The notes under the pieces are model-generated. The model did not search any database. It saw nothing but the letters and a program-made list of their open reading frames with translations, and was not told the DNA's origin. From contig NZ_DAHUXJ010000041.1 of assembly GCF_027307225.1 (NCBI RefSeq), positions 1 through 53,028 on the forward strand: a DNA stretch of 53,028 nt. The letters are read 5' to 3'. The position numbers were made by a program, and so were the translations under genes. The stretch comes from Bradyrhizobium sp. (GTDB lineage: Bacteria > Pseudomonadota > Alphaproteobacteria > Rhizobiales > Xanthobacteraceae). The number at the start of each line of letters is the position of its first letter. The stretch's first letter is position 1. Below are positions 4,089 through 52,030 of this stretch, piece after piece.

Positions 4089-4256
4089 CTGGCGCCGCCC
4101 ATTTGAAGTTCCTGCACCGCAAGCGGCTAACTCCTTCCAGGAACTTCAAATGGAAAGCGGCTCCAGAATCAATAAGTTTGCTAGCACCCATGACTTTTCG
4201 AAGTTCGTAAAGGTGGGCGCTGCGATTGAGTACGAACTTCGAAAAGTGGGTGCTAG
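4089..4256. repeat. Two-hairpin element, class 4 (hemD/tsaD intergenic)
   Basis: Hairpin 1 (4089-4166) has arms ATTTGAAGTTCCTG and CAGGAACTTCAAAT, with an AAA bulge on its right arm. A 14-nt AT-rich spacer (4167-4180) follows. Hairpin 2 (4181-4256) has arms CTTTTCGAAGTTCGTA and TACGAACTTCGAAAAG, bounded by CTAG at both ends, with a 3-nt bulge on its left arm. It ends 1 bp before the likely TTG start of tsaD and occupies most of the divergent promoter region. Confidence 0.9.
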
Positions 4257-4257
4257 A

Positions 4258-5349
4258 TTGGCTGACGACGCGCGAACATTGGTGCTGGGGATCGAGACCA
4301 CCTGCGATGAAACCGCAGCCGCCGTGGTCGAGCGCGCAAGCGACGGTAGCGCGAAGATCCTGTCGAATATCGTGAGGTCGCAGACCGAGGAGCATGCGAT
4401 CTATGGCGGCGTGGTGCCGGAAATCGCCGCGCGCGCCCATATCGACCTGTTAGACGGCATTATTGACACCGCGATGAAGGATGCGGGCGTGGGCTTTGCG
4501 CAGCTGTCGGCAGTCGCGGCCGCCGCCGGGCCCGGCCTGATCGGCGGCGTGATCGTGGGCTTAACCACCGCCAAAGCGATCGCGATGGTTCACGACACGC
4601 CATTGATTGCAGTGAACCATCTCGAGGCGCATGCGCTGACGCCGCGGCTGACCTGCGCGCTGGCGTTTCCCTATTGCCTGTTTCTCGCCTCCGGCGGGCA
4701 TACCCAGATCGTCGCCGTCACCGGCATCGGCCAATATGTCCGGCTGGGCACTACCGTCGACGACGCGATCGGCGAAGCGTTCGACAAGGTGGCGAAGATG
4801 CTCGGGCTGCCTTATCCCGGCGGACCGGAGGTCGAACGCGCCGCGCGCGGCGGCGATCCCACGCGCTTTGCGTTGCCGCGGCCGATGCTCGGGCGCAACG
4901 ATGCCAACTTCTCGCTGTCGGGATTAAAGACCGCAGTACGCAACGAAGCCGCACGACTGATAGCGCCGGAACCGCAGGACATCCGCGATCTCTGTGCGAG
5001 TTTCCAGGCTGCCGTGCTGGAATCGACGGCCGATCGGCTGAGCGTCGGCATCAAACTGTTCCACGAGCGGTTCGGTGCGCCGCGCGCTTTGGTCGCAGCC
5101 GGAGGAGTCGCCGCCAATCAGGCGATCCGCGGCGCGTTGCAGCAGGTGGCGGCGAAAGCCGAGACCACGTTGATCATTCCGCCGCCCGCGCTGTGCACCG
5201 ACAATGGCGCGATGATCGCGTGGGCCGGCGCCGAACGGCTGGCGCTGGGCCTGACCGATACGATGGACACCGTGCCGCGAGCGCGCTGGCTGCTCGACGC
5301 CGGCGCCACGGCGCCGGCAGGTTACGCCAACACCCGCGCGGGGTTTTGA
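4258..5349 (+). CDS. tsaD: tRNA N6-threonylcarbamoyladenosine transferase TsaD
   Basis: 363 residues from the TTG at 4258. TsaD transfers the threonylcarbamoyl group to A37 of ANN-decoding tRNAs, working with TsaB and TsaE. Visible signatures: VLGIETTCDET at the N-terminus (ASKHA fold phosphate loop), the metal-binding HLEAH motif, LFLASGGHTQIV, and GEAFDKVAKMLGLPYPGGP. The frame stays open far upstream, but that extension is translated repeat DNA. Family proteins start just before VLGIETTCD, so the start is TTG 4258, GTG 4246 (inside the repeat) or TTG 4279. No strong ribosome-binding site is visible at any of them. It is followed by gpsA, as is common in Rhizobiales. Confidence 0.93.
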   Translation: MADDARTLVLGIETTCDETAAAVVERASDGSAKILSNIVRSQTEEHAIYGGVVPEIAARAHIDLLDGIIDTAMKDAGVGFAQLSAVAAAAGPGLIGGVIVGLTTAKAIAMVHDTPLIAVNHLEAHALTPRLTCALAFPYCLFLASGGHTQIVAVTGIGQYVRLGTTVDDAIGEAFDKVAKMLGLPYPGGPEVERAARGGDPTRFALPRPMLGRNDANFSLSGLKTAVRNEAARLIAPEPQDIRDLCASFQAAVLESTADRLSVGIKLFHERFGAPRALVAAGGVAANQAIRGALQQVAAKAETTLIIPPPALCTDNGAMIAWAGAERLALGLTDTMDTVPRARWLLDAGATAPAGYANTRAGF

Positions 5350-5430
5350 GAGGCGTGATGCGTGAAGACCTTCACACCGCATGCCACTCTCATCTCCCCA
5401 TGTTAGGCAGGGCCGAACGCGCGCTTTTTT

Positions 5431-5587
5431 ATCCCTCCCCCCGCGAGCGCAGCGAGTGGTGGGGAGGGTCGACGCGAGTTCTAAGCGAGCGTCGGGGTGG
5501 GGGGTGTTTCGATAGATCGGCCCCCCACCCTGGCCTACGCTTCGCTTCGGCCTTCCCTCCCCACCGCTTCGCGGGGGGAGAGATAAG
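5431..5587. repeat. Long GC-rich imperfect palindrome between tsaD and gpsA
   Basis: Left arm CCCTCCCCCCGCGAGCGCAG with GGTGGGGAGGG is mirrored by CCCTCCCCACCGCTTCGCGG and GGGGAG about 90 bp later. The whole could fold into a large cruciform or RNA hairpin. It resembles the intergenic palindromes scattered through Bradyrhizobium genomes. It separates tsaD from gpsA and may limit readthrough; this role is inferred. Confidence 0.6.
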
Positions 5588-5614
5588 AACGCGCGGAGTT
5601 TTGAGAGGCAGCCG

Positions 5615-50623: not shown

Positions 50624-50630
50624 TCTACGC

Positions 50631-50715
50631 GCAAACGCTCAAGCGTTTGGCGCGAGGGAAAACCGCTTCACACTTTGCGCTAACGCGGCCCTCCGGGTCC
50701 GGATCATGCGTTACA
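50631..50715. repeat. Degenerate RIME-like intergenic palindrome
   Basis: GGGAAAACCGCTTCACACTT and TCCGGATCATGCGTTACAGC match the rhizobial RIME-type repeat also seen at 30546-30595, with an insertion in the centre. It lies at the convergent end of the hydrolase and ubiH genes. Confidence 0.6.
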
Positions 50716-51931
50716 GCGCTTCGCCCTTGAGAAGCCGGGGAACCTCGCCGGCGAGGCCCGCAGCCTGGCGAATGAAGATGCCTTTCAGCGGCGGGGCGCG
50801 ATCGACCAGACCGAGACCAATATCGCGCACGGTGCGTAGCAGCGTCGATTGATTGGAGAACAGGAAATTGAGCGAGTTGGTAGCTAAGCCCATCGCCATG
50901 GTGTCGAACCGCCGCCAGCGCTGGTAGCGCTCGATCACGTCAGCCTGGCCGGGATCGATGCCGAGCCTTGCCGCATCGACGAGCACCTCAGCGAGCGCGG
51001 CGACATCCTTCAGACCCATATTGAGCCCCTGCCCCGCAATCGGATGAATGACATGGGCGGCATCGCCTACCAGCGCCAGGCGCTCGCTAATGAAAGAGCG
51101 CGCCACGAAATAGCCAAGCGGAAAGGCGCGCGGCCTGTCGAGCGCCCTCACCTCGCCGAGACGCAAACCGAAGCGCCGCTCGAGTTCGTCGTGAAACTCC
51201 TGATCGGCGAGCGCGACGATCCGCGCCGCCTCGTCGCGCTTCTCGGTCCAGACCAGTGACGAGCGCTTGCCGGAAAGCGGCAGAATCGCAAAGGGACCGG
51301 CGGGAAGAAAATGCTCTTCGGCGCGGCCCTGATGTTCCCGCTCATGTCCGACGGTGACCACGATTCCCGATTGATTGTAGTCCCAGCCATGGGTGGCTAT
51401 TCCGGCGCGCGCGCGTAGCTTCGACCGCGCGCCATCGGCAGCCACCAGAAGGCTCGCTTCGATGATGTTGCCGTCCGAAAGCGTGACGTCGACGCCCCCG
51501 CTATGGGTCGAAAAATCGGAAACCGCAAGCGCGCGAAGATCGACCCCTTCAGCCTCGGCGCGTTGAACCAGCGCGTCGATCAAATATCTGTTCTCGACCA
51601 TATGGGCGAAGGGTTCGCCCGGCTCGATATCTCCGGAAAATGTCAGGAACACCGGTCGCGTCGCATCCTCCAACTTCGAATCCGTGACAACCATGTCCAG
51701 GATTGGCTGCGTGCTCGCCGCAACCTGGTCCCAGACCCCAATCGCCTCAAAAAGACGGCGGCAGGCCGCGACAATCGCGGTCGCGCGCGGGTCACGGCTC
51801 GGTCGCGTGGCGAGCGCCGGATCGGCGACAGTGATGGGAAAGTCGTTTCCGAGGCCTTGGCGTATCGCCAAAGCGAGCGCAAGACCGGCAAATGCGCCGC
51901 CGCCAATGACAATGCCTCGTTGAACCGACAT
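50711..51931 (-). CDS. UbiH/UbiF family FAD-dependent hydroxylase
   Basis: 406 residues from ATG 51931 (MSVQRGIVIGGGAFAGLALA). It has the FAD dinucleotide motif GGGAFAGLALA, the DG fingerprint LLVAADGARSKLRARAG, and the second FAD motif LVGDAAHVIHPIAGQGLNMG. The family hydroxylates the ubiquinone ring at the membrane. Which ring position this one modifies cannot be read from sequence, as alphaproteobacteria use UbiL, UbiM and UbiH variants. A hybrid repeat lies 27 bp upstream of the start, in the divergent region with tesB. Confidence 0.93.
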   Translation of the reverse strand: MSVQRGIVIGGGAFAGLALALAIRQGLGNDFPITVADPALATRPSRDPRATAIVAACRRLFEAIGVWDQVAASTQPILDMVVTDSKLEDATRPVFLTFSGDIEPGEPFAHMVENRYLIDALVQRAEAEGVDLRALAVSDFSTHSGGVDVTLSDGNIIEASLLVAADGARSKLRARAGIATHGWDYNQSGIVVTVGHEREHQGRAEEHFLPAGPFAILPLSGKRSSLVWTEKRDEAARIVALADQEFHDELERRFGLRLGEVRALDRPRAFPLGYFVARSFISERLALVGDAAHVIHPIAGQGLNMGLKDVAALAEVLVDAARLGIDPGQADVIERYQRWRRFDTMAMGLATNSLNFLFSNQSTLLRTVRDIGLGLVDRAPPLKGIFIRQAAGLAGEVPRLLKGEAL

Positions 51932-51957
51932 GCTGGACCCGCTCGAAATCAATGAAA

Positions 51958-52030
51958 CTAGTGGTCGGATTCTAACATTCGCGTTCCGAACGTGCAGCCA
52001 AGTGGGTAGCGAATGTCAAATCCACTCCAC
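51958..52030. repeat. Hybrid F/E single hairpin
   Basis: CTAGTGGTCGGATTCTAACA then TTCGC (F left arm) is joined to GCGAATGTCAAATCCACTCC and ACC (E right arm). The core ACATTCGC/GCGAATGT pairs; the outer parts do not. Same junction type as 47466-47529 and 19541-19605. Confidence 0.8.

Follow-up and report, generated by a model that had tools for sequence, protein, structure and literature searches.

The question

What are the two-hairpin segments of about 165 bp that recur throughout a stretch of Bradyrhizobium DNA, what moves them, and why does a small bulge sit on one particular arm of each of their hairpins? The window considered here is the whole analysed stretch of 53,028 nucleotides (contig NZ_DAHUXJ010000041.1), for which a sequence-only reading had counted 14 intact copies, each consisting of hairpin, spacer and hairpin, as well as at least six remnants. 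All 14 copies are present, with starts as given to within one base, the spacer measures 13–14 nt (11 nt at 31212) and the stem classes occur as described. The bulge indeed lies on the spacer-side arm and is usually AAA or TTT; given earlier as roughly 3 nt, its size in the alignment ranges from about 2 to 5 nt (e.g. in 31212B and 41982B).

Architecture of the elements and their copies in the window

Hairpin 2 is a unit of the same type as hairpin 1 in reverse complement, which makes the element an inverted dimer; its unit measures 74–80 nt and has arms ending in CTAG, a rule absent from the earlier reading. In the sampled stretches of this genome, facing neighbour units stand 13–14 nt apart in 150 of 176 cases, and the single hairpin was set aside as the mobile unit with 350 of 416 units found inside dimers. 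Of the 30 full-length units outside dimers, three lie at edges and 14 are close to a partner; the remaining 13 lack one, and two of these are the halves of an element split by IS701.

Within the window, copies are located at 4089–4256 (minus strand, with feet CTGG and CTAG and with 4 nt between the matching flanks in genome G108), 22893–23057 (plus strand, its left foot CTAA containing the stop codon of the ORF at 21082–22896), 31212–31374 (minus strand, the copy with the 11-nt spacer, at a site without element in both G108 and genome G244) and 39933–40099 (minus strand); two further ones are decayed, i.e. 41981–42149 (plus strand, with a decayed copy at the corresponding site in G244) and 48508–48677 (plus strand, flanks not placeable in G108). 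The elements at 19212–19376 (plus strand) and 19373–19539 (minus strand) have the CTAG at 19373–19376 in common and are followed by a decayed hairpin of an older element at 19545–19600, with a decayed remnant at the corresponding place in G244. Four elements form a tandem array, 34862–35028 (plus strand), 35025–35190 (plus strand), 35190–35354 (minus strand, CATT class) and 35351–35518 (plus strand), in which the second and the fourth each have a CTAG in common with their left neighbour; the third is likely the oldest of the array, because a decayed hairpin of its class occupies the site in G244. The plus-strand element at 47526–47693 is adjoined by a hairpin remnant (47467–47520, plus strand), and that at 48731–48898 (plus strand) by a single hairpin unit (48895–48965, plus strand), again with CTAG in common. 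The other remnants are a hairpin at 3041–3092 (minus strand), two more units within 3135–3287 (3135–3209 and 3237–3287) and a decayed single hairpin at 51958–52033 (minus strand), where G244 has 3 nt between the matching flanks.

Abundance, mobility and insertion at CTAG

According to the sequence-only reading, confinement of the copies to the window would have spoken against its interpretation, and a search of the host genome and its relatives had been proposed. Copies do occur elsewhere in both: 175 dimers, some of them decayed, were counted in 1.436 Mb of this genome (about a quarter of it, window included, sampled as 75 stretches from contigs with the top matches), and matches were obtained in 28 of 79 other genomes, in a search that scored 59 candidates per genome and has soft negatives. 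Extrapolation to 5.6 Mb yields about 680 dimers, a figure that is likely too high because the sampled contigs held the top matches. Arm statistics below refer to the 129 dimers that passed full-length filters; 48 of these have a neighbour copy that is at least 97% identical. Twelve window sites, ten with dimers and two with remnants only, were tried in G108, and none of the 11 that could be placed bears a dimer there. Thus, the two-hairpin elements are mobile. In matching stretches, unit density per 10 kb is 3.23 here versus 0.68 in G108 and 0.66 in G244, the model used having been built from the window and thereby favouring this genome.

Insertion also involves the elements themselves. Back-to-back neighbours at most 400 bp apart (n = 38) overlap by exactly four bases in 26 cases (25 CTAG, one CTGG), and a four-base overlap is also seen in seven same-direction neighbours, six of which read as inner-foot insertions. 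The CTAG feet of existing elements, outer as well as inner, serve as insertion sites. At 16 of 258 ends the outermost base of the foot departs from CTAG, as against 4 of 258 for the adjoining element-borne base (p 0.01), as would be expected if only TA is duplicated, because the flanking base would then remain that of the target. At empty sites, about 4 nt are kept at the foot position in several cases, and several others misfit at this divergence. Duplications beyond the CTAG feet stay around chance level (11, 1 and 1 of 129 for 2, 3 and 4 nt), and no common 4-mer was found directly outside the feet. A preference for TA within CTAG is described for IS630 (Tenzen and Ohtsubo 1991, as cited in the available part of PMC2170065).

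Outer arms resemble the ends of IS630 transposons

Which machinery could move such dimers? The earlier reading had compared them with BIME/REPIN or a MITE and had suggested looking for a transposase, RAYT or other, with matching ends. In a REPIN or BIME, REP palindromes form an inverted pair that RAYT, a Y1 tyrosine transposase, mobilizes in single-stranded form. The elements are likewise inverted hairpin pairs of high copy number and mostly intergenic, with only 1 of 106 copies inside an ORF call (simple ORF calls); moreover, two RAYT-like ORFs (L034 and L035) occur in this genome, and in L031 a dimer lies about 100 bp from the end of an IS200-like Y1 ORF. However, there is no unit match within 1.5 kb of the two RAYT-like ORFs, a search for Y1 (PF01797) gave no match in 6 of the 12 element-bearing genomes examined, the one-contig G108 included, and the feet are paired CTAG, the unpaired GTAG/CGTC tag being absent. 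Units of 74–80 nt also contrast with the 20–40 bp given for REPs in the available part of PMC3733652, and the outer arms match the ends of a DDE transposon. A REPIN or BIME is therefore highly improbable, and it is the MITE half of the earlier comparison that fits.

The DDE transposon in question is IS630, a Tc1/mariner family, the ends of which in Bradyrhizobium read CTAGTGTCC[C/T]GAACCAGAAGTTCGC, i.e. the motif of the outer arms. The transposase of locus L326 matches the NCBIfam IS630 model with 274 bits (cut-off 100). Among 60 IS630 loci scanned, a terminal pair was found in 34 (68 ends), with C before TA in 63 and G after it in 66 of the 68, i.e. CTAG; 25 of the 34 belong to one group close to L326, and the end counts are not independent because several loci are near-identical copies in sister genomes. 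When 246 of the 258 outer arms (12 with other feet were dropped) were compared at positions 5–25 with 10 distinct ends of the L326 group, the mean score was 14.1 of 21 versus 8.5 for shuffled ends, and 124 of the 246 arms reached at least 15 of 21, versus an average of 0.005 arms with shuffled ends. Ends of other IS630 groups (n = 11) reached 12–15 for 144 of the 246 arms. The best outer arm scored 17/21 in this genome and 18/21 in other genomes, and exact identity between any IS630 end and an element arm was not found. This match is the outcome of a search through three families, IS630 having been chosen after two earlier ones.

Being only about 165 bp long, devoid of a transposase gene and equipped with outer arms that resemble IS630 ends, the elements are likely IS630-type MITEs, and in our judgement they quite probably rely on an IS630-type transposase acting in trans, which would join their ends to TA within CTAG. 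A MITE of another CTAG-targeting DDE family has also to be considered, since an IS701 element (NF033540, 420 bits) resides in the inner CTAG foot of element L169, flanked by CTAG on both sides; as it sits exactly in this foot, IS701 uses CTAG here. Yet the IS701 ends, CATTACAGTTG and CACTACTTTGG, match the arms at no more than 11 of 21 positions, and IS701, the DDE family searched besides IS630, gave no match in the element-bearing genomes G108, G244, G260 and G077 (four of seven tested), which makes this origin extremely improbable.

Against IS630 as the mover, this genome yielded no IS630 whose ends match the arms, both of its PF13358 matches being of other types; a donor in the same genome is usual for a MITE but does not define one. 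IS630s with matching ends do occur in other genomes of Bradyrhizobium. PF13358 was not found in the element-bearing G108, G260 and G006 (3 of 17 tested), and close IS630 relatives (E ≤ 1e-100) are present in 12 of 25 genomes with element matches versus 7 of 22 without, a weak link between the two (47 Bradyrhizobium genomes, read by hand, with soft element negatives). The CATT stem class was no nearer to either of the IS630 groups tested (9.2 vs 8.9 of 14). Lone units 250–3500 bp apart gave five candidates for an autonomous copy within a unit pair; neither of the two examined was one, L169 being the element split by IS701 and L183 consisting of remnants around ordinary genes, and the others are 48895/51968 in the window, L204 and L115. 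Searches for lone arms and for inverted ends flanked by CTAG brought up pairs and remnants of the element, IS701 and a further CTAG-flanked element, but no matching ends, and one viral-contig scan gave no match.

A shifted register in the inner arms

All four arms of a dimer are end-like, but they differ in the position of the core. In the two outer arms the core is found at offset 16 (119 and 122 of 129), whereas in the two inner arms it is found at offset 19 (119 and 123 of 129), with two inner arms (B) at 16. IS630 ends have it at offset 16 in four of six tested, the other two being without the search motif. Placed without gaps, outer arms share 17.8 and 17.3 of 24 positions with the IS ends and inner arms only 9.9 and 9.6. 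The same offsets, 16 in outer and 18–20 in inner arms, were seen in 85 of 92 units from 46 dimers of other genomes (34 from the locus set and 12 from the G genomes, excluding the two L220 dimers, which belong to this genome). Judged by these alignments, the bulge amounts to three nucleotides inserted into each inner arm, and the IS630 spacing is kept in the outer arms but not in the inner ones. The bulge rule, which could previously be matched to no known family, thus makes sense in terms of geometry.

This suggests how ends might be chosen. The transposase would take the outer pair of arms for its left and right ends, while the inner-arm insertion would shift the cleavage end (CTAG TG..) out of register with the GAAGTTC-like core. 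With the inner ends out of register, only the outer pair would work, and the 165-bp dimer would move as a whole.

Covarying stems in a mobile DNA element

The matched changes in the two arms of a stem that had been noticed in the window are borne out by an alignment of 28 units, in which 22 of 26 pairs vary on both sides and 96.9% of cells are paired, as compared to 74.9% after shuffling and 41–42% after a slide by one column. Folded as DNA, three single hairpins give z values of −6.4, −8.7 and −9.9, and a 150-nt segment from a fourth element gives −8.4. Such strong folding and covariation, in intergenic elements on whose outer foot 23 ORF stop codons lie among 106 copies examined (simple ORF calls), could also indicate a structured RNA, i.e. 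a 3′-UTR stabiliser, a terminator or an sRNA, under selection for its fold. Against this stands the equal frequency of G.T and A.C mismatch cells (60 vs 64), and there is therefore no sign of RNA selection. Gene context is not distinctive either, with 67 tandem, 22 divergent and 15 convergent gaps containing an element versus 376, 149 and 129 element-free ones (simple ORF calls); no Rfam family matches the element at gathering score, the window having only a tRNA and a ZTP riboswitch; and both the use of CTAG as insertion site and the recent spread are marks of mobile DNA. RNA function as the origin of the fold is very unlikely, although the elements may have a secondary effect on transcripts.

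How do the arms come to change together? Palindromes are known to self-correct by template-switch repair, which would copy arm onto arm and produce covariation without any selection, a process compatible with the elements being IS630-type MITEs. Two-sided changes exceed the independent expectation even in close copies (2 vs 0.6 at 97% identity or more, 16 vs 3.7 at 93–97%; pairwise comparisons, in which pairs are not independent), as copying would predict. However, stem-pair differences between copies at least 97% alike are one-sided in 132 cases and two-sided in 2, and two-sided changes predominate only below 85% identity; their late appearance speaks against fast copying, because fast copying would yield more of them early. 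The inner-arm insertion, moreover, is rarely erased by copying or transferred to the other arm, with 2 of the 129 inner B arms having the core at offset 16. Copying alone thus seems an unlikely, though not negligible, source of the covariation. The earlier proposal that a folded molecule, DNA or RNA, is under selection is partly right: arms co-change in the long term above independent expectation, but nothing points to selection at the RNA level.

For IS630-type MITEs, local palindromes may be kept since lineages with well-paired hairpins would spread better; palindrome maintenance is not a known requirement of Tc1/mariner transposons, which counts against the assignment to IS630. Taken together, a tentative picture, to which we give somewhat less than an even chance, is that a conserved inner shift of 3–4 nt tells the transposase which of four end-like arms are the real ends, that the dimer moves whole, that copies supply CTAG landing sites and that palindromes are kept by DNA-level selection for element success. 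In the literature searched, no bacterial MITE with a comparable code for choosing its ends was found.

Significance and relation to known systems

Overall, a repeat that is abundant in Bradyrhizobium and other Hyphomicrobiales gains an identity and a likely mover, and its puzzling structural rule, the inner-arm bulge, an explanation in transposon-end geometry. That stems of a mobile DNA covary so strongly, with nothing that points to selection on RNA, is a caution for covariation-based RNA discovery. Furthermore, existing copies provide landing sites for further copies, one of which was also used by IS701, and with elements and IS701 landing at CTAG feet, the elements shape intergenic regions and stop codons.

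The sequence-only reading would have been contradicted by fragments of a known named repeat or IS with no covariation beyond chance; IS701 and Rfam families did not match, known Bradyrhizobium REPs were rejected after comparison, and no description of the element family was found in the literature searched. REPINs and BIMEs with GTAG/CGTC-tagged REPs, Bradyrhizobium's included, are similar in being opposed palindrome pairs that are intergenic and clustered, but, as described in the available part of PMC3733652, REPs are shorter, carry an unpaired tag and, in the GTAG types, have RAYT genes nearby, unlike our longer units, the feet of which are paired CTAG and the ends IS630-like; the text there, which has a Bradyrhizobium type GTAG-14, never writes CTAG. 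Br-REP1 and Br-REP2 of B. japonicum USDA 110 are also intergenic palindromic repeats of this genus (available part of PMC5082802). The consensus of Br-REP1, CCGGAATCTCGAGATTCCGG, reaches at best 12/20 inside the 129 elements, and Br-REP2, compared by eye only, has a different sequence.

The IS630s of Bradyrhizobium (e.g. L326, which equals L346 of G015, L349 and L352–L375) have CTAGTGTCC[C/T]GA..AAGTTCG, the end-core spacing and CTAG at both ends in common with the elements, but are 1.2 kb long and contain a transposase gene; in the G015 copies no second arm or hairpin is visible by eye at the ends, and the unit profile matches their first 24 positions only. A parallel is RUP, a 107-bp pneumococcal repeat with ends like those of IS630-Spn1, for which mobilization in trans has been proposed (available part of PMC3049150). 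Both are short repeats with IS630-like ends, but whereas, by that description, RUP is a simple unit whose two ends pair with each other, the Bradyrhizobium element consists of two full hairpins, with four end-like arms and an insertion in the inner ones.

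An inverted dimer of one hairpin unit

The 14 intact copies counted by the sequence-only reading were all recovered in place. With the bulge set on the 3' arm, a unit, i.e. one hairpin, opens with CTAG and six variable positions; next come an inner stem of 16 bp built around GAAGTTC/GACATTC and a loop of about 20–25 nt, and the returning arm, with about three extra nucleotides, ends in a second CTAG. Since both hairpins of each element follow this plan once oriented by the bulge, and since 22 of 26 stem pairs vary on both sides (28 units, 96.9% of cells paired), which bears out the covariation claimed from sequence alone, the element is an inverted dimer of this unit. 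Facing neighbour units are 13 or 14 nt apart in 150 of 176 cases, and CTAG occupies the four foot positions, i.e. the arm termini, in 112, 110, 111 and 104 of 129 dimers. In the source genome, outer feet also carry 23 ORF stop codons (106 copies examined); at one sampled locus (L124:2620–2630), an ORF takes its TAG stop codon from the CTAG foot.

A unit profile search of 1,435,692 bases of the source genome, a Bradyrhizobium (75 stretches plus the window), found 416 units and 175 dimers. The covariance-model search of host and relatives proposed earlier matched 29 of 80 genomes, including the source genome, in four of 33 genera, and an exact-pattern scan (81 stretches) picked up further copies in records named, among others, Rhodoplanes, Pseudolabrys and Mesorhizobium. 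The element at 22893–23057 is followed, about 70 bp on, by a ZMP/ZTP riboswitch (23127–23207, 57.5 bits).

Pairing and its maintenance

Copies at least 97% alike differ in their stem pairs on one side in 132 cases and on both in two, whereas below 70% identity the two-sided share of differing pairs is 84.7%, with 40.2% expected under independent change. Thus, young copies lose pairs to mutation, and pairing has been restored in the lineages that survive. This re-pairing partly supports the proposed selection on a folded DNA or RNA, but nothing points to RNA, because G.T and A.C mismatches are equally frequent (60 versus 64). Slow copying from arm to arm may have helped to keep the palindromes, given the two-sided changes among close copies (2 versus 0.6 expected at 97% identity or more, and 16 versus 3.7 at 93–97%).

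Mobility and candidate movers

Of 12 window sites tried (10 with dimers, two with remnants only), 11 could be located by both flanks in the syntenic stretch of the close relative G108, and no dimer is present at any of them. In a second close relative, G244, site 41981 holds a decayed copy, site 34862 one decayed hairpin and site 19212 a remnant. Unit density per 10 kb is 3.23 in the source genome; in the corresponding stretches it is 0.68 (G108) and 0.66 (G244), values that a model built from the window may understate. A different dispersed repeat (about 430–480 bp, non-coding in appearance) lies at 13791–14282; a relative of it (L197, 13140–13620) has dozens of matches in both genomes, and contig G244:C78 carries the repeat at both ends.

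Back-to-back neighbours at most 400 bp apart overlap by exactly four bases in 26 of 38 cases (25 CTAG, one CTGG), and six more copies look inserted into inner feet of other elements. Several empty sites retain about four nucleotides at the foot position, e.g. TTAG in G244 versus CTAG..CTAA in the source genome; others misfit, at a divergence too high to decide.

A transposase with matching ends, which the sequence-only reading had suggested seeking, exists in other genomes of the genus: the outer arms match the ends of IS630 copies. Three copies in G015 read CTAGTGTCCTGAACCAAAAGTTCG / CTAGTGTCCTGAATCAGAAGTTCG (both ends in two copies, one end in the third), and a genus-wide search found more such copies. 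The transposase is IS630 by NCBIfam and has DDE_3 in Pfam. Shuffled ends and those of IS701 match the outer arms far less well; other IS630 groups also have weaker-matching ends, yet these reach 12–15 of 21 positions for 144 of 246 arms. The offset of the core from the foot is 16 in outer arms, as in those IS630 ends where the motif was found (four of six), and 19 in inner arms; the bulge is therefore an insertion in the inner arms. Dimers of other genomes (n = 46) agree, with outer 16 and inner 18–20 in 85 of 92 units. This insertion would, we infer, disable the inner arms as transposon ends, which agrees with the scarcity of solo hairpins.

Several observations, however, speak against an IS630-type mover. 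IS630 with matching ends was not found in the source genome, searches for its domain PF13358 gave zero matches in G108, G260 and G006, and the genus-wide association is weak (close IS630 relatives in 12 of 25 genomes with element hits versus 7 of 22 without). No particular IS630 group was found to fit arms of the CATT stem class, and the duplicated target may be either TA or CTAG. The heaviest PF13358 load among 17 genomes searched is 45 matches (G025).

A Y1/RAYT mover was rejected: neither of two RAYT-like ORFs in the source genome has an element within 1.5 kb, and a Y1 match was absent in six of 12 element-bearing genomes. One IS200-like Y1 ORF of the source genome lies about 100 bp from a dimer. 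Also rejected was IS701, whose ends differ from the element arms and which was not found in four of seven element-bearing genomes. One IS701-family element (sampled locus L169:3431–4866) is inserted precisely in an element's inner CTAG foot, with CTAG on either side.

Comparison with known systems

Going by paper text, consensus figures aside, published Bradyrhizobium REPs are unlike the element (PMC3733652; PMC5082802). The published Br-REP1 palindrome occurs once in the window as an exact copy (28520–28539), and at 6808–6894 lies an imperfect palindrome (GTCATGCCCGCG...) resembling a CGTC-type REP pair, a candidate for that type as named in the text of PMC3733652. A comparable repeat is RUP of pneumococcus, whose ends, in the text of PMC3049150, are IS630-Spn1-like.
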